DNA from: Microtetraspora niveoalba
GTDB taxonomy: Bacteria > Actinomycetota > Actinomycetes > Streptosporangiales > Streptosporangiaceae
Direction: 5' to 3'
DNA length: 64,000 nucleotides
Assembly: GCF_001570405.1 (NCBI RefSeq)
Contig: NZ_BBYM01000031.1
Span: forward strand, 1 to 64,000
The translations under genes were made by a program, and so were the position numbers. How positions within the stretch are numbered: the stretch's first letter is position 1; each line of letters begins with the position of its first letter. Shown piece after piece: positions 4,102 through 14,696 of this stretch. The notes beneath the pieces were generated by a model. The model did not search any database and was not told the origin of the DNA. It was given only the letters and a program-made list of their open reading frames with translations.

Positions 4102-4929
4102 ATGGCGAACGATCTTGACCCGCGGCTGACGCCGGTTCAGCGTTTCGGCCGTGAGCTCGCACGGGCCCGCAAGGAGGCGGGTCTATCTCAGGAGCGGCTC
4201 GGCACACGCCTGGGCGTCTCTGGATCGCTCGTGGGACACATCGAGATCGGCAACCGGACCCCCAAACCGGACCTTGCAGCCCGATGCGATGAGGTGTTCG
4301 GAACGGGTGACTTCTTCGCCCGGCTCTGCAAGAACATCACCTCCCCGTCGGCGCCCCACTGGTTCCTCAGATGGTCAGAGGAGATCGAGCCCCGGGCACG
4401 GGTACTACGGAGCTGGGACCCGCTACTGATCCCCGGACTACTCCAGACCGAGGACTACGCAAGGGCCGTCTTCCGTGGTGGCCTGGCAGCTTCGGAACAG
4501 GAGATCGAAGAGCAGGTAGATGCCCGCATGACTCGCCAGATCATCCTCGATCGCGAGAATCCCCCCATCTTGTGGGTCCTGCTGGACGAGTGGAGCCTGC
4601 TACGCCCTATCGGCAGCCCGAAAGTCATGTATGAGCAACTCGACCATCTGACCGACGTAGCGGCTCGGCAGAACGTAAAGGTCCAGATCGTTCCGCATGA
4701 CGCGCCCTGCACCGTCAGGCTGATGTCGGGGTTCGCACTCGCCGAACTGCCGGATGCGCCGACCACGGCGTCCATAGAGTCAGCAGGAGCAGGTGAGGTG
4801 TCCGCCGAGCATGAATTGGTGAGCCTCATGTGGGACACCTATGACAGGATTCGTGCCGAAGCCCTTCGTCCCGGTCATTCACTGGAAATGATCAAGGAAG
4901 TAAGAGAGCAATGGAAGTCAAAGACGTGA
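4102..4929 (+). CDS. XRE-family regulator with DUF5753 domain
   Basis: 275 residues. The N-terminal helix-turn-helix (FGRELARARKEAGLSQERLGTRLGVSGSLVGHIE..., about residues 13-60) is followed by a DUF5753 domain that includes LLIPGLLQTEDYARAV, the family hallmark. AAGGAG precedes the ATG by six bases. The 3' end overlaps the DUF397 gene by 19 bp, the standard arrangement of these pairs in actinomycetes, where they resemble the WhiJ developmental regulators. It probably acts as a DNA-binding repressor modulated by the DUF397 partner and perhaps the ATPase. Confidence 0.92.
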   Translation: MANDLDPRLTPVQRFGRELARARKEAGLSQERLGTRLGVSGSLVGHIEIGNRTPKPDLAARCDEVFGTGDFFARLCKNITSPSAPHWFLRWSEEIEPRARVLRSWDPLLIPGLLQTEDYARAVFRGGLAASEQEIEEQVDARMTRQIILDRENPPILWVLLDEWSLLRPIGSPKVMYEQLDHLTDVAARQNVKVQIVPHDAPCTVRLMSGFALAELPDAPTTASIESAGAGEVSAEHELVSLMWDTYDRIRAEALRPGHSLEMIKEVREQWKSKT

Positions 4930-5135
4930 CCCATGTGGACCTCTCCACAGCCGCGTGGAAGAAGAGCTCCCGGAGCGGCTCCAGCGGCGGCAACTGTGTC
5001 GAGGTCGCCAGCAACCTTCCGGGCGTCATCGCGGTCCGTGACAGCAAGAACCCCGATGGCCCCAAGCTGCTCTTCACTCCTGCCGAGTGGCGAGCCTTCA
5101 TCGGCGGCGTGAAGGATGGCGAGTTCGACGCCTAG
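4911..5135 (+). CDS. DUF397 domain protein
   Basis: 74 residues, a complete DUF397 domain: the LSTAAWKKSSRSGSSGGNCVEVA block, then VAVRDSK-like IAVRDSKNPDGPKL, then FTPAEWRAFIGGVKDGEFD. It overlaps the end of the XRE/DUF5753 gene and is translationally coupled to it. DUF397 proteins are small partners of such regulators. Confidence 0.93.
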   Translation: MEVKDVTHVDLSTAAWKKSSRSGSSGGNCVEVASNLPGVIAVRDSKNPDGPKLLFTPAEWRAFIGGVKDGEFDA

Positions 5136-5202
5136 CGGCCGACGACGTTTCTCGTACGGCTCCTCACCTCGCGGCGCTGACTGACGTTGCCAGCATCTGA
5201 TG

Positions 5203-5835
5203 TCAGGGCCAGAACGGCTGCGCGCGGGTGGCGGCTGAGACCAGCGGGGCCGCGTCGATCTCGGTGAATGTCAACGGGACGTCGAAGGCTGGCCACTCCA
5301 CGACGAACTCGAACGGCTCAGGCGGCGGCAGTGGCCATAGCCACAGATGCCAGCTCCGGCACACAAACCCGCGGCCGCCCGGCTCGCTCTTTCCGTGCAA
5401 GGACAGGAGAACCGGGCTATCCGGTTGAGATGGAGGCCACTCCGGCGTCTGGCGCATCCCGTCGAAGATGGTCGCCTTGCTTCCATCCGAGAAGCGGACC
5501 CCGAAACGCTCGATCTCCTCAGGGAGGGGACGGTCGGGCCCGAGATGGAAGTGGCTGCCCATCAGTAGTTCACGCTGGCTCCACCAGGTCTCATCGTCCA
5601 CGCCTTCGCTGCGGCGTGCCCCCATCGTGACCTCGAAGTCAACACCTTCGGGAAAGACAGTGGCGCTGGTGAGCACCAGAACCAGAGTCTCACCGCGGAA
5701 CAGCACCCGCTCGATGGGCACCAGGGCGCCGAGCACGTCTTTCCGAGGGCCGCTCCACGCGGGCGGCACCGTTTCCTCGCCTTCGAATTCCATACGGCGA
5801 GGCGGCGGGACATCGAAGAACCCCATGCGCCTCAC
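5203..5835 (-). CDS. Hypothetical actinobacterial protein
   Basis: 210 residues from a GTG at 5835 (MRRMGFFDVPPPRR). The ATG at 5826 (MGFFDVPPP) is an equally possible start. Soluble, with no signal peptide, rich in aromatic and Pro residues (MGSHFHLGPDRPLPEE, WHLWLWPLPPPEPFEFVVEWPAFDVPLT). The pattern of alternating strands suggests a beta-rich fold. I recognise it only as a conserved hypothetical type. It faces the DUF397 gene tail to tail. Codon usage fits a real gene. Confidence 0.7.
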   Translation of the reverse strand: MRRMGFFDVPPPRRMEFEGEETVPPAWSGPRKDVLGALVPIERVLFRGETLVLVLTSATVFPEGVDFEVTMGARRSEGVDDETWWSQRELLMGSHFHLGPDRPLPEEIERFGVRFSDGSKATIFDGMRQTPEWPPSQPDSPVLLSLHGKSEPGGRGFVCRSWHLWLWPLPPPEPFEFVVEWPAFDVPLTFTEIDAAPLVSAATRAQPFWP

Positions 5836-6196
5836 GCTACGTCACGTCTTCAGCACGAACATCTTCGCCGCTTCGCCCATAAGCCGGCCCAGGGGAGCCC
5901 CGACCGCAAGCCGGGACAGAGAAGCGATTACGAGGTGACGAAAGCTTGACCCGAATCGCTCAGTGACTTCGATTGTCGCTGGTCAGCGCGTTTTTGGGAC
6001 GTCATTGGGAGATGAGGCGGCACACTCCATGACGCTGTCTTTTCCTGTTTCCCCAGCTCAGATCATGTTCCGGACGATGGCGGTCTCTTTGCTGGGTGTT
6101 TGCGGTGCTCGGTGTCCGTACCGAAGGTGTCCCGTTCATGTACGGGGCCGGTGGGAGACCGGCGGTGTCCGAACCGATCACCATTCGGGGGCCACC

Positions 6197-7278: not shown

Positions 7279-7662
7279 GTGAGATCCAACCCCGGCACCA
7301 CCCGCCAGGTTCTCACCAACGTCGGTACCGTCGCGGCCGGTGCAGCGCTCGGCTTCATCATCGGAACCGGTATCACGTGGTTGATCAGCGACCCCAGCAC
7401 CGCCACCGCGTCCACCGCGCTGGCTGCGCCGTCGTCGCTGAATCAGGTGATCGACAATCTGCGCAACGTCATCGTCGGTCTGCTCGTCGCCCTCGCCACG
7501 CTGTTCCTGACGATCGGCGGGGTCCGCTACATCCTCGCCGGCGGCGACCCGAGCGAGGTCGAGGCGGCCAAGAAGACCCTGCGCTACGCCGGCCTTGGGT
7601 ACGGCATCGCGACGCTGGCGCCGCTGCTGGTCAGCATCCTCAAGGGCATCGTCGGAGGCTGA
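7279..7662 (+). CDS. VirB2/TrbC-like pilin-type membrane protein
   Basis: 127 residues, GTG start with GGGAGG six bases upstream. Three hydrophobic stretches are visible: VGTVAAGAALGFIIGTGITWLI (about 15-36), VIVGLLVALATLFLTIGGVRYILAGGD (about 64-90) and GIATLAPLLVSILKGIVGG at the C-terminus. The LFLTIGGVRYILAGGDPSEVEAAKK pattern is the actinobacterial pilin-like (T4SS VirB2/TrbC) signature. It ends two bases before the next gene's start, so the two are probably one operon. Confidence 0.78.
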   Translation: MRSNPGTTRQVLTNVGTVAAGAALGFIIGTGITWLISDPSTATASTALAAPSSLNQVIDNLRNVIVGLLVALATLFLTIGGVRYILAGGDPSEVEAAKKTLRYAGLGYGIATLAPLLVSILKGIVGG

Positions 7663-9710: not shown

Positions 9711-11867
9711 TTAGTAACTGGCCGATTTTCCAGGAAGCTCGTGCTGCGTCGCGACCAGTTCGGCGTACTTGCCGCTCATGGCCATCAGCTCCTCGTGCGT
9801 GCCACGCTCGACGATGCGCCCGCTGTCGACGACGAGGATGAGGTCGGCGTCCCTGACCGTGCTCAGCCGATGGGCGATGACGATCCTGGTCTGGACGAGG
9901 TGGCTCAGGTTCGCCTCGATGACCGACTCGGTAGCGCTGTCAAGGTTGCTGGTGGCCTCGTCCAGCAGCAGCACCTTGGGGCGGCCCAGGAGGGCGCGGG
10001 CCAGTGCCAGGCGCTGGCGCTGCCCGCCGGACAGGCCACCGCCGTCAGTCAGCATCGTCTCGTACCCCATCGGCATGGCCATGATCTCGTCGTGCAGCGC
10101 GGCCACGCGCGCCGCCGCCATCACGCGCTCCAGCGGCGCACCGGGGTCGTTCAGCCCGATGTTCTCCCTGATCGAGCCGTTGAACAGGGACGGGTCCTGG
10201 GTGACCACGCCGAACTGGCGGCGCAGCGTACGCAGACTCAGCTCCCCTGCCGGCACCCCGTCGTAGCGGATCTCGCCCAGCACCGGCGCGTGCAACGCCA
10301 GCAGCAGTCTGGCCAGCGTGGTCTTGCCCGACCCGGACGCACCCACCAGTGCTACCTTCTGGCCCGGGCGGATGACGACCGACACGTCCCGCACCGTCCA
10401 CGGGGCGCGGGGGTCGTGTCTGAAGCTCACGCCGCGCACCTCGATCGCGCCGCGCAGGCGCAGCACCTCGATGCCCTCGCTCGGCTCCGGCTCGGAGGCC
10501 AGGATGTCCGACAGCCGGTCGAAGTGCGCGCCCGCCTGCTGCAAGCTCTGCAGCCCGGTCATAAGTGAGCCGAGCGGGGTGAGCGCGGCCAGCGCGATGG
10601 CGTTGAGCGCGATCAGCGCACCCACCGTGAGCTGCCCGTCGAGCACCCGCCAGGCACCCAACCACAGCAGCCCGAGCGGCGCCGCCACCCGGATCCCCGA
10701 CAACGCCGACTCCAGCAGCCCTCGGGCCAGCCCCATCCGCACGTCCGCGTCGAGTTGCCGGCTGAAGTGGGCCGACCACTTCTCCACCGCGCGCTGCTCG
10801 GCGCCGGACGCCTTCAACGTCTCGATGCCGGAGATCGCCTGGATGAGGCTGGTCTGCGACGCCGACAGCGCTGCCAGCTCCTGCCTGGTGAGCGTGGCGA
10901 TGCGGTTGGTGGTGCCCAGCATGAGGAGGGTCTGCAGCACGGCCACACCGGTTAGCGCCAGCCCGAAGACGGGGTCCCAGAAGTAGACGACCACGAGGTA
11001 GCCGACGGCCAGCGGCCCGTCCAGCAGCGCGGCCACGATCTGGCCGGTGAGGATGGCGCCGAGGGTGGACACGCTGGCCGCACGGGTGACCAGGTCGCCC
11101 GTGCCGCGCCGGGTGAAGTACCGATACGGCAGCGTCACGAGATGGCTCACCACGCCCTCGGTGAGCTGCTGGTCGGCGCGGACCCGCACGGCCACCAGCA
11201 GCGCGCTGCGGAGGTAGCCGATGACGAACTGGGCCGCGCCGGCCAGCAGCACGGAGCCGCCCAGCAGAGTGAGCACCTCCACGCCGTACGCGGGGACGAT
11301 CCTGTCCAGCAGGAGCTGGGAGAACATCGGCAGGGCCAGCCCGAGCAGCTGCAGCAGCAGCGAGGCGGCCACGATCTGCGCGAGCATGCCCTTACGCCGC
11401 CGAAGCAGCGTGCGTACGAACTCCCTGCGCCAGGCGCTCGCGATCGAGGTCGTGCCGCGCTGGAAGCCCTCGCCCGGCTCGAACACCAGAAGCACGCCGG
11501 TGAACCCGGCGCCGAACTCCTCGGCGGTCAGCCTGCGGCGACCGGCAGCCGGGTCCACGACGTCCACGCGGTCCGGCGACCAGCGTTCCACCACCAGGAA
11601 GTGGTTGAACTCCCAGTGCGCCACGGCCGGGAGCGGCACGCGGGCAAGGTCCTCGGGGGCCAGGGAGAACGCGCGGGCCTTGAGGCCGTGCTCGCGCGCG
11701 CCGTCCAGGAGCGCCCTGGCGCTCAGGCCGTCCCTGCCGATTTGGAGGCGTTCGGTGACCTGGTGCAGCGTCGTGCGCCGGCCATGGTTGCACAGCACCA
11801 TGGCCAGGCAGGCGGCACCGCACTCGGTGTCGGTGTTCTGCAGGATGACGGGCATGCGGCGAATCAT
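9711..11867 (-). CDS. C39-peptidase ABC exporter (bacteriocin/RiPP type)
   Basis: 718 residues. The N-terminal C39 peptidase has Q10, catalytic C16 in TDTECGAACLAM, H89 in HWEFNHFLVVE and D105 in DVVDPAAGRR. A six-helix transmembrane domain occupies about residues 160-440. The nucleotide-binding domain has Walker A GASGSGKTT, signature LSGGQRQRLALARAL, Walker B VLLLDEATSNLD and the switch histidine in IVIAHRLST. Such proteins cut leaders after a double glycine and export the core; the precursor at 12502 has exactly such a leader. The ATG overlaps the stop of the small membrane gene (ATGA at 11864-11867), with GGGAG seven bases upstream. Confidence 0.95.
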   Translation of the reverse strand: MIRRMPVILQNTDTECGAACLAMVLCNHGRRTTLHQVTERLQIGRDGLSARALLDGAREHGLKARAFSLAPEDLARVPLPAVAHWEFNHFLVVERWSPDRVDVVDPAAGRRRLTAEEFGAGFTGVLLVFEPGEGFQRGTTSIASAWRREFVRTLLRRRKGMLAQIVAASLLLQLLGLALPMFSQLLLDRIVPAYGVEVLTLLGGSVLLAGAAQFVIGYLRSALLVAVRVRADQQLTEGVVSHLVTLPYRYFTRRGTGDLVTRAASVSTLGAILTGQIVAALLDGPLAVGYLVVVYFWDPVFGLALTGVAVLQTLLMLGTTNRIATLTRQELAALSASQTSLIQAISGIETLKASGAEQRAVEKWSAHFSRQLDADVRMGLARGLLESALSGIRVAAPLGLLWLGAWRVLDGQLTVGALIALNAIALAALTPLGSLMTGLQSLQQAGAHFDRLSDILASEPEPSEGIEVLRLRGAIEVRGVSFRHDPRAPWTVRDVSVVIRPGQKVALVGASGSGKTTLARLLLALHAPVLGEIRYDGVPAGELSLRTLRRQFGVVTQDPSLFNGSIRENIGLNDPGAPLERVMAAARVAALHDEIMAMPMGYETMLTDGGGLSGGQRQRLALARALLGRPKVLLLDEATSNLDSATESVIEANLSHLVQTRIVIAHRLSTVRDADLILVVDSGRIVERGTHEELMAMSGKYAELVATQHELPGKSASY

Positions 11868-12127
11868 CCGGCCGCTCCCGCGCGCAGCGCCAGCACGGTC
11901 AAGACGGTGCCTGCCGCCAGAATCGCCGCCACGACCAGCCACAGCACGAGGAACGACGGGCCGCTGATCACCGGCGACAGGAGTCGGACCGGGCGGGGTG
12001 CGGCGTGCTCGCGCAGGGCCTCCTCCCGATAGATCCTCGGTCGCTCCTGCTGTTGCGCCGGCGCCACCCGGGGGCGCCGGACCGGGAGGGTGGCGTCGTT
12101 CGGATCGCCGGCCGTGATCTTCGACAT
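11864..12127 (-). CDS. 87-residue membrane stub resembling the N-terminus of a HlyD-family adaptor
   Basis: ATG preceded by GAGAGG. A polar N-terminus leads to RIYREEALREHAAPRPVRLLSPV, very like the cytoplasmic segment of HlyD-type adaptors of C39 exporters. One membrane helix follows (FLVLWLVVAAILAAGTVLTVLAL), and the protein stops a few residues later. The barrel-sandwich and coiled-coil domains of a true membrane-fusion protein are absent. The stop overlaps the exporter's start, so it is made with the exporter. It could be a reduced, functional adaptor or assembly factor, or a decayed gene; the intact coupling and ribosome binding site argue for function. Confidence 0.7.
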   Translation of the reverse strand: MSKITAGDPNDATLPVRRPRVAPAQQQERPRIYREEALREHAAPRPVRLLSPVISGPSFLVLWLVVAAILAAGTVLTVLALRAGAAG

Positions 12128-12501: not shown

Positions 12502-12657
12502 ATGACCATTCGAATCGATGATCTGGAAAACGGCGCCGAGCTGCCTGACGACGTGCTGGACGCGGTCATCGGCGGTCGCGACATGATTGGTCCGAGCCCG
12601 AAGGTCTGCACCTCGATCAACAACGGTCAGCCGGACACCTGCTGGGACCTCAGCTAA
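12502..12657 (+). CDS. RiPP precursor peptide with double-glycine leader
   Basis: 51 residues, ATG with GAGGAG six bases upstream. The leader (about 1-25) is acidic and ends ELPDDVLDAVIGG, a classic double-glycine leader for a C39 exporter. The 26-residue core begins RDMIGPSPK and ends NGQPDTCWDLS. It offers possible ester or amide donors (S32, K34, T37, S38, T46, S51) and few acceptors (D27, D45, D49, C-terminus), plus cysteines at 36 and 47. It precedes an ATP-grasp ligase gene, so side-chain macrocyclisation (graspetide) is expected. The core lacks the microviridin TxKxPSD-type motif, which makes the product class uncertain. Confidence 0.85.
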   Translation: MTIRIDDLENGAELPDDVLDAVIGGRDMIGPSPKVCTSINNGQPDTCWDLS

Positions 12658-12711: not shown

Positions 12712-13704
12712 GTGATCCTGATACTCAGCAGCAAGGACGACATTGGCGTCAACCTCGTCCTGCCCAAGCTCGTCGAGCGTGGCGTCGAGGTGTACTGGTG
12801 GGACCCCGGCGACTATCCCGCCACCGCCCGGATCACCTCCCGCCTGGTCGGCGGTGCCTGGCGGCACACGCTGATCACGGACGACGCCGAGATCGACTCG
12901 TCGGCCGTCAGCACCGTCTGGGTGCGCCGCCCGCAGCCGCCGGAGGCGGCGCCCGCCGTGGCCGACCCCGGACACCGTGAGCATGTGGCGAAGCTCGGCC
13001 GGATCTTCATCGACGGCTGGAGCGACACCTACGACGCCCGGTGGTTCCCCGCCGACCTGAACACGCTGCGGCGTACCCAGAACAAGCTGGTCAACCTCGC
13101 GGCCGGCGCCCGGATGGGCTTCACCGTACCGGCGACGACCATGACCAACGATCCCGAGGAACTGGCCGACGGCTGGACGGCGACGGGCGGCCGGTTGATC
13201 GCCAAGGAGGTCGAGTTGGTGCCCTACGAACTCCACGGGGAGGAGCACGGCTTCTACACCACCTCGGTGACCCGGCGGCACCTCACCAGCCGCCACCGCC
13301 TGGCGCACGCGCCGGTGATCCTCCAGCCGAAGATCGAAAAGGCGGTCGAGCTGCGCATCACCGTCGTCGGCGACCGGGTGTTCGCCGTCGCGATGGACTC
13401 CCAGGCGTCGCGGATGACCCGGGACGATTTCCGCCACTACGAAGGCACCTTCATCAGCTACGCCATCCACGACCTGCCGAAGGACGTGGAACGGCGCTGT
13501 GTCGAACTGGTCAGATCGTTGGGCCTGGCCTTCGGCTGCCTCGACATGATCCTCACCCCGGAAGGCGAGTACGTGTACCTGGAGTTGAACCCCAACGGTC
13601 AGTGGGGATGGCTGGAGGAGTTCATCGACCTGCCCATCTCCGAGGCGATCGCCGACTGGCTGGCGGCCGGAGAGCGCCCGGCCGGTCAGGAGGTGCCCGC
13701 GTGA
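12712..13704 (+). CDS. ATP-grasp peptide ligase, MvdC/MvdD-like graspetide maturase
   Basis: 330 residues, GTG start with AGGAG six bases upstream. The N-terminal MILILSSKDDIGVNLVLPKL and GVEVYWWDPGDYP pattern and the VWVRRPQPP motif match the pre-ATP-grasp domain of graspetide ligases. The central part has RTQNKLVNLAAGARMGFTVPATTMTND. The metal/ATP-binding end has FGCLDMILTPEGEYVYLELNPNGQWGWLE. Family enzymes phosphorylate Asp/Glu side chains and join them to Ser, Thr or Lys of the precursor as ester or amide macrocycles. The next gene starts inside its stop (GTGA), so the two enzymes are co-made. Confidence 0.9.
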   Translation: MILILSSKDDIGVNLVLPKLVERGVEVYWWDPGDYPATARITSRLVGGAWRHTLITDDAEIDSSAVSTVWVRRPQPPEAAPAVADPGHREHVAKLGRIFIDGWSDTYDARWFPADLNTLRRTQNKLVNLAAGARMGFTVPATTMTNDPEELADGWTATGGRLIAKEVELVPYELHGEEHGFYTTSVTRRHLTSRHRLAHAPVILQPKIEKAVELRITVVGDRVFAVAMDSQASRMTRDDFRHYEGTFISYAIHDLPKDVERRCVELVRSLGLAFGCLDMILTPEGEYVYLELNPNGQWGWLEEFIDLPISEAIADWLAAGERPAGQEVPA

Positions 13705-14696
13705 CCGGCTACCCGCAGACGCTCGCCGGGGCGGTCGAACTGCTGCGTGGGCTGCCGCGCCACCGCGACGCCGTGCCCGAGGCGCGCAGGACCGTGGCGG
13801 CCTGGCGTGCCGCCGACCCCGGTTGCCGCGCCCAGCTCGTCGTGGACGAACGGCCGGGCACCCCGCAGGTCGACTACGACCTGCTCATCGACCACCCGGA
13901 CGGCGGCACCGTCGCGCTCACCGCCTCCGCCGAGGACGGCGTGCCGTGGGCGGTCGACCACTCCACGCACTGGGCCGCGAGCAAGGTGTTGCGCGTGGAT
14001 GGCCGGGACCTGTCCGTACAGACGGCGCTGCTTTCGATGCGGGCCTACGGCGAGCGGGACAGGACCCTGCATGATGATCTGATCGACTACTGCATCCTTT
14101 CCTTGGAGACCCAGGAGGACGAGGAGCCGTCGGAGGACGAGCTGCAGCGGGCCTCCGACGACTTCCGGCGGCGGCGCGGGCTGCACAGCCGCGCCGACAC
14201 GATGCGCTGGCTGGACCAGGTGGGTCTCACCCCGCAGGCGTACCAGAACCACCTGTTCACCCTGGCCAGGATGAACAGGTTCACAAGACGCATACAGGCC
14301 GAATCGGCCATGGCCTACTTCACCGACCACGCCGCGGACTTCGCCCGGGTGTCGGCCGTGTGGGCCATCGGGCCGGAAGCCGTCCTCGGTGAGCTGGCCG
14401 GCCAGAATGACGCCGTCGCGGCGCTGGGCGCGGCGGTGACCTGTCCTGGCGGAGACCTCACCGTCCATGTGGCCGACCGGGTGGCTGCCGAGCTGCCCGA
14501 GCCGTTGCGTGACGCCGCCGAGGGGGTGGCGGTCGGTCCGGTGCCCTACCGTGATGCCTTTCTCTTCGGTGTGGTACGTCGGCGCCGCCCCGCTCAGCCC
14601 GACAATGCCACGCTCGCCGCCGCGGGACGGGCCGCCTTCTCCGCCTTCATGGCGGAGCGGCGGGCCAAGGCGAAGATCGAGTGGTTCTGGCTCTGA
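13701..14696 (+). CDS. PpiC-related putative peptide maturation protein
   Basis: 331 residues, GTG start overlapping the ligase stop. The N-terminal part (VELLRGLPRHRDAVPEARRTVAAWRAADPG) leads into a middle domain (YDLLIDHPDGGTVALT, VPWAVDHSTHWAASKVLRVDG). The C-terminal half is helical, with VGLTPQAYQNHLFTLARMNRFTRRIQAESAMAYFTDHAADFARV and VAVGPVPYRDAFLFGVVRRRR, resembling parvulin/SurA-type foldases. I recall a family of PpiC-related proteins tied to peptide maturation (TIGR04500) that fits; a profile search would decide. It may hold or fold the precursor during ligation. No signal peptide is visible, so it probably acts in the cytoplasm. Confidence 0.75.
   Translation: MTGYPQTLAGAVELLRGLPRHRDAVPEARRTVAAWRAADPGCRAQLVVDERPGTPQVDYDLLIDHPDGGTVALTASAEDGVPWAVDHSTHWAASKVLRVDGRDLSVQTALLSMRAYGERDRTLHDDLIDYCILSLETQEDEEPSEDELQRASDDFRRRRGLHSRADTMRWLDQVGLTPQAYQNHLFTLARMNRFTRRIQAESAMAYFTDHAADFARVSAVWAIGPEAVLGELAGQNDAVAALGAAVTCPGGDLTVHVADRVAAELPEPLRDAAEGVAVGPVPYRDAFLFGVVRRRRPAQPDNATLAAAGRAAFSAFMAERRAKAKIEWFWL

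Follow-up and report, generated by a model that had tools for sequence, protein, structure and literature searches.

A variant rosaritide-type locus in Microtetraspora niveoalba encodes a predicted graspetide precursor with a cysteine pair

Introduction

Graspetides reportedly fall into 24 groups, set up in a paper of 2021. Rosaritide stands for graspetide group 21, and its cluster in Micromonospora rosaria, mirABCD, is reported to encode a precursor, a synthetase (TIGR04187), a TIGR04500 protein, and a peptidase-containing ABC transporter (PCAT; TIGR03796) (PMC13097080). In that report the synthetase MirB alone leaves the precursor MirA unchanged, and three esters, Ser8-Asp22, Ser9-Asp26, and Thr11-Asp24, are formed with MirC (PMC13097080). 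Cysteine in graspetide precursors is as such already known: an earlier report describes many new precursors with conserved Cys, suggests thioethers made by radical SAM enzymes, and names TIGR04500 as one of the families that occur next to ATP-grasp genes (PMC8939145). Among the papers listed in our literature searches, which include PMC13003496, PMC9576775, and PMC12291112, no title or abstract opening reports a graspetide with a native disulfide. Here we describe a locus in a 64,000-nucleotide stretch of Microtetraspora niveoalba DNA (the window; contig NZ_BBYM01000031.1, positions 1 to 64,000), in which this soil actinobacterium carries a small peptide gene beside genes for ring-forming enzymes, and whose product is probably stabilized by both esters and a disulfide.

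Results

The window contains an ORF of 51 aa at 12502–12657 (+), translated as MTIRIDDLENGAELPDDVLDAVIGGRDMIGPSPKVCTSINNGQPDTCWDLS, which is divided after a double glycine into a leader (M1–G25) and a predicted core (R26–S51; 12577–12654, +), the core being delimited with the help of column conservation in 13 precursors. Translation bears out the residues and positions given in a preliminary description of this DNA: the only acidic residues after the double glycine are D27, D45, and D49, Glu is absent, and Cys stands at 36 and 47. Donor candidates in the core are S32, K34, T37, S38, T46, and S51. The ATG is immediately preceded by AGGAG, a GTG 153 bases upstream would open a possible longer frame, and the same start Met is found in the 12 relatives of our precursor alignment, with the consensus M[TSA][IVA]R[IFL][DE]D[LI]. 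The precursor matched no family among the Pfam and NCBIfam models at E values up to 1. As had been stated earlier, TxKxPSD and TTxxxxEE are absent from the translated core, and the microviridin leader motif PFFARFL is absent from the precursor. Comparison of homologs indicates that the ORF is a real precursor and not a chance ORF, because related ligases of other genera have the same kind of ORF in front and because the window shares an identical V35–D49 segment (VCTSINNGQPDTCWD) with locus L068 and with one of the L069 precursors.

A predicted graspetide synthetase, an ATP-grasp ligase of 330 aa with a GTG start (12712–13704, +), begins 54 bases after the precursor. It matches the MvdD-type pre-ATP-grasp domain PF21068 with 45.1 bits (cut-off 27) and TIGR04187 with 231.7 bits (E 1.2e-68), the latter below the curated cut-off of 350. 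The DFR motif of graspetide synthetases is located at residues 239–241 and occurs in 7 of the 113 ligases of our comparison set, most others having D[WY]R at the same place. Solved relatives matching the ligase are AMdnB (7m4s), 5ig8, 5ig9, and CdnC (7mgv), all of which we take to be microviridin-type enzymes. The AlphaFold model of the ligase, built from 4 sequences, has a pLDDT of 34.9 and allows no active-site argument.

The next gene, whose start overlaps the ligase gene's 3' end, encodes a TIGR04500 (PpiC-related), MirC-like partner protein of 331 aa (13701–14696, +; 263 bits, cut-off 180). Its AlphaFold model (pLDDT 76, pTM 0.54, 4 sequences) matches SurA-type chaperones, with a best Foldseek E value of 3.0e-6 and TM-scores of about 0.3. 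Residues 215–298 of the model match parvulin domains over 79–82 residues at 2.6 Å, with VIA Z values of 8.0–8.3, which, as the tool itself warns, may reflect no more than a common arrangement; the N-terminal domain (1–83) gave only weak matches, with VIA Z up to 5.8. MirC is reported to resemble an RRE and to have a chaperone-like part, with a C-domain unlike the PPIase domain of Cj1289 (PMC13097080). The parvulin-like stretch suggested by the model is a point to check against that report and no proven contradiction of it.

On the minus strand, a C39 PCAT of 718 aa from the chosen ATG (9711–11867) matches PF03412, PF00664, and PF00005 above their cut-offs and TIGR03796 with 615.7 bits, below the cut-off of 853.3; it is expected to cut after the double glycine and to export the core. 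This gene context supports the earlier assignment of the 51-aa ORF as a graspetide precursor. The PCAT start is overlapped by an 86-aa ORF (11864–12124, −) with one hydrophobic stretch, as judged by eye, and without a Pfam or NCBIfam match; a 50-residue stretch is 52% identical to one beside the PCAT at L095, and the ORF is possibly a transporter accessory. Among 15 proteins scanned around the precursor, a set to which neither the long ORF following 7662 nor the remainder of the window belongs, no match to redox or radical SAM enzymes that might act on the Cys residues was detected, and the genes scanned around the precursor included no O-methyltransferase. A type IV secretion pilin match (7279–7662, +; PF18895, 73 bits) lies near the cluster, and a mobile element beside it is therefore possible.

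The window's ligase clade and a neighboring clade whose cores carry CxW together comprise 11 loci, all of which have the partner after the ligase. A transporter homolog is present in six of these stretches (window, L095, L096, L133, L135, and L136), and the other five contain no full transporter homolog within the stretch examined, the stretches compared being 8.6 to 16 kb long in addition to the 64-kb window. A second ligase clade of 13 members, 46–51% identical to the window ligase and represented in the same genome by L003, has partner and transporter in 12 of 12 neighborhoods (L121 and L176–L186; 12 of the 13 loci). The group searches scored only the best 5–8 candidates of a first look per genome, so that ligases and partners may have been missed. 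One relative, L175 (G118:C177:66000-76000), has an intact-looking precursor (L156; core end CAYLASSHEGRTVDRLDIQV), a ligase consisting of residues 1–110 only, and partner and transporter matches in fragments; on these matches it is a decayed cluster. The window's own genome holds two further loci. At L127 (G000:C34, 5245–6309, +), a TIGR04500 gene has no ligase found within 12 kb with the window's ligase as query, and the genes directly before it look like keto-acid dehydrogenase E1/E2; in two other genomes (L124, L125), an ORF whose C-terminus is almost that of this E2 is followed some 70 bases later by the start of a ligase, and no precursor was called there. The pair may serve some other function, or the ligase may have been lost from the window's genome. 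At L120 (G000:C39, ~4919–5920, +), a family ligase has no TIGR04500 partner matched within 12 kb and no precursor called.

A profile built from the 13 aligned precursors gave 16 matches at E ≤ 1.4e-7 in 341 genomes of the family, 13 of them rows used to build it and 3 independent, and all 16 lie in a locus with a ligase, once a ligase fragment only; weaker matches outside known loci had E values of 5.6e-4 to 0.0097. Cores beside the wider set of ligases are very diverse, the calls at 88 of the 106 ligase loci having given 87 distinct cores; at the other 18 no precursor was called, and L104, L105, and L109 were below the leader score. Other core types beside related ligases include RMSVSWKIGGKPAEWVIS (one Glu), AKSQVIVIHGGHTHTSGDSN, RPMERCYHTNGTEGRPSDGWVSDY, and QKVEITTGWYADPPGYCGTD, some of these further types having a single acid acceptor only. 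If the reading proposed below is right, a precursor finder for such loci should accept a wider range of cores.

The relation to rosaritide was assessed with 113 ligases gathered by likeness to the window ligase or by TIGR04500, a set that is without MirB; alignment scores were calculated with the usual formula. With single linkage at score 70, the published ligase network threshold (PMC13097080), and also at 75, 106 of the 113 ligases form one component that includes those of the window and L043, and the two separate at 80; direct alignment scores of the window ligase with L043, L137, and L138 are 59–61. Because a set gathered in this way does not sample the other published groups, the network shows linkage and not separation from them. 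The L043 core, LPRNGAGSSKTIDDIPGGGRPDTDTDFD, precedes a ligase and a TIGR04500 gene and agrees with rosaritide at 13 of the 14 residues that PMC13097080 numbers, the exception being Thr for Ser at residue 25; the L137 core is the same. The window ligase is 39–41% identical to this rosaritide-like ligase (L043/L194), and the best ligase outside the family, in 345 genomes of the class with the family included, is likewise rosaritide-like (G386, 209.2 bits). The window locus is thus a variant of the recently described rosaritide-type system and not a new system.

Given this linkage at the published threshold within the 113-ligase set, the locus might be an ordinary group 21 member, its Cys-pair core already contained in the group consensus and nothing new, the more so as the published survey covers more than 20,000 predicted graspetides (PMC13097080). 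We consider this unlikely: the rosaritide pattern SSxT...DxDxD is not found in the window core, the authors term the group 21 residue pattern unique, and their main text mentions neither "Cys" nor "disulfide" (PMC13097080). The preliminary description had proposed a new core class. That proposal is only partly supported, in that the window core differs from rosaritide at its numbered residues, and it is weakened by a gene set equal to the rosaritide cluster and by a ligase that links at score 70.

The closest ligases are those of L068/L094 (Spongiactinospora sp., 78% identity), L069/L096 (Streptosporangium saharense, 77%), L070/L095 (Rhizohabitans arisaemae, 71%), and L071 (69%), the ligases being identical within each paired locus. 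Their precursors end in VCTSINNGQPDTCWDFS (L068), VCTSINNGQPDTCWDPQG and VCTSVNGEPDTCSDYPY (L069), YCTSINNGQPDSCRDVS and VCAATNGQSDNCRDWQG (L070, which has a divergent third precursor), and LSSSLGNGTRGDPLPDTFT (L071). In the cores of loci L072–L077 (about 60% ligase identity), CxW is followed by [AS]S[STA] and this by D-x2-D, with a single Cys four residues earlier. The alignment of these precursors has 13 rows from the window and CxW clades, with columns counted by eye and with the third L070 precursor, L116, L156 (from the decayed locus), L123, and L102 left out. D45 is invariant (13/13), every row has two Asp 3–4 residues apart, and Ser/Thr occupies position 37 in 12 rows and position 38 in 11. 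Most rows of the window clade keep the motif [ST][ST]-x5-7-D-x2-3-D, from which T37 and S38 are likely donors and D45 and D49 likely acceptors; the core of the second L070 precursor, CAATNGQSDNCRD, is without Ser/Thr at both donor positions, and the third L070 precursor has one Cys, outside the motif. D27 was rejected as an acceptor because most relatives have Pro or a different residue in its place, and K34, which varies among the rows, was rejected as a donor, so that two donors and two acceptors are expected. Of the three Asp acceptors proposed earlier, D45 and D49 are thus conserved and D27 is not, and of the proposed Ser/Thr/Lys donors the T37 and S38 columns are conserved and K34 is not.

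A core with the disulfide but a single ester, in which D49, after the second Cys, would be a conserved structural residue, could be imagined from second-clade Cys-pair cores. In L003, L044, and L110 the C-terminal motif (GQDC, GDC, and GDC) holds one Asp, other acids lying further upstream. The presence of two Asp in all 13 aligned rows, with Ser/Thr at position 37 in all except one, makes a single ester improbable in the window product.

Of the 13 aligned rows, 6 have both C36 and C47 and 7 have neither; of the latter, six have one Cys elsewhere and L071 has none. The two Cys noted in the preliminary description therefore belong together. The pair recurs in the second clade, for example in the cores of L003 (YACSSAASGQDCKNT), L044/L118 (YVCTASAAGDCRQA), and L104 (YVCTASQRGDCWKD), and both Cys are absent from L113 (YVSSSYANGTKTDTLPADR) and L117 (YVSTSYNNGKSTDTLPADR), in each of which Ser stands in for the first Cys and two Asp are present. 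The ligase tree groups the window with L068 and L069 (100/96), followed by L070 (100/99), and places L071, the Cys-less locus, as sister of these four (94/86, not starred); L072–L077 join next, with 100/100 for all 11, and the second clade of 13 is supported by 100/98. Cys traits were coded by hand over 26 loci, leaving out L123 and L102, entering the locus of L116 as L059, and coding L070 from two of its three precursors. By parsimony the two Cys require 4 and 3 changes when L106, which has a lone Cys, is coded against pairing; on these counts, joint gain or loss of the pair would have happened about three times. Supported branches offer three independent contrasts for joint change, two concordant and one (L106) not, and because there are only three, a sign test is not significant (p 0.5).

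Ser is aligned with Cys36 in L071 and L074 and with the first Cys in L113 and L117 of the second clade; because Ser replaces the first Cys in relatives, Cys36 stands at a possible donor position. One or both Cys might then be donors for a native thioester made by the synthetase, with no disulfide, and engineered Cys residues do serve such synthetases as donors, giving thioesters (PMC13003496, PMC12291112). The thioesters in the reports that we consulted, PMC12291112 among them, follow substitution, and none of these reports describes a native one. Moreover, the second Cys accompanies the first in all 6 rows of the window clade and sits between the acceptors, where a thioester donor would not need it, and we regard a native thioester as very improbable.

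Silent changes are favored in both parts of the precursor. Among seven precursors, pN/pS, a rough measure for such short sequences, is below 1 in 21 of 21 leader pairs and 19 of 21 core pairs, the core exceptions being window-L070 (1.16) and L070-L070b (1.08); for the window and L068 it is 0.37 in the leader and 0.46 in the core. Conservation among homologs, the check that had been proposed for the core, thus falls in the core as well as the leader, in alignment columns and in pN/pS alike. L070/L095 has three precursors ahead of one ligase, and its precursors 1 and 2 (leader 0.42, core 1.08) look like a case of core diversification after duplication. That the window locus is decayed or silent, as at least one relative (L175) is broken, is barely credible given four core genes with open frames, family matches for all except the precursor, and these preferences for silent change.

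Discussion

We propose, with a probability of roughly 0.6, that the window locus makes a rosaritide-like graspetide that depends on a partner protein and carries two esters and a disulfide formed on export. The proposal is based on gene content, homologous precursors, conservation of the two Asp and of the Ser/Thr pair, and the finding that the two Cys occur together or are missing together. The leader would recruit a complex of synthetase and chaperone-like TIGR04500 partner, the need for both being carried over by analogy from the MirB/MirC experiments (PMC13097080). The synthetase would phosphorylate Asp45 and Asp49, and attack by Thr37 and Ser38 would give two side-chain esters with two water losses; the assignment of T37/S38 to D45/D49 and the order of steps are our suggestion, and either pairing is allowed. 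The PCAT would cut after Gly25 and export the 26-residue core, and Cys36 and Cys47 would close to a disulfide outside the cell, crossing any ester from position 37 or 38 to D49. We infer esters inside and a disulfide outside from the reducing cytoplasm and from export by the PCAT.

More tentatively, and with less confidence than we place in the two-ester product itself, the product may be a natural hybrid of omega-esters and a disulfide in which the Cys pair replaces one Ser-Asp ester, the two having been exchanged repeatedly in evolution. The occurrence of Cys-pair cores in two ligase clades, together with the Cys-less L071, L113, and L117, each with two Asp and with Ser in place of the first Cys, is the basis for this suggestion. 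If it is true, enzyme-made ester and disulfide are interchangeable cross-links in the cores accepted by a synthetase family that has a chaperone-like partner, and related enzymes with Cys-pair, Cys-less, and single-Cys cores form a natural test series with which ring number, choice of ring partner, and the role of the partner protein could be probed.

Microviridins and plesiocin (groups 1 and 2) are made by ligases of the same superfamily as that of the window, but the window precursor is without TxKxPSD, TTxxxxEE, and PFFARFL, and a partner protein is present. The pre-fuscimiditide system ThfA/ThfB, whose enzymes we take to belong to group 13 and which is one of the graspimiditides with PIMT, has esters at Asp, as proposed here, and engineered thioesters are known for it; unlike it the window has no O-methyltransferase among the genes scanned and has another partner and another core. 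Disulfides and a Ser-Glu side-chain ester are combined in one peptide in the stryphnines, knottins of sponges, for which the authors report no grasp enzyme found (PMC13418204). The nearest counterpart is mirABCD, with which the window shares a precursor with a GG leader, an ATP-grasp synthetase, a TIGR04500 partner, and a C39 transporter (PMC13097080); unlike rosaritide with its three esters, the window core combines a Cys pair with two conserved Asp and two Ser/Thr.
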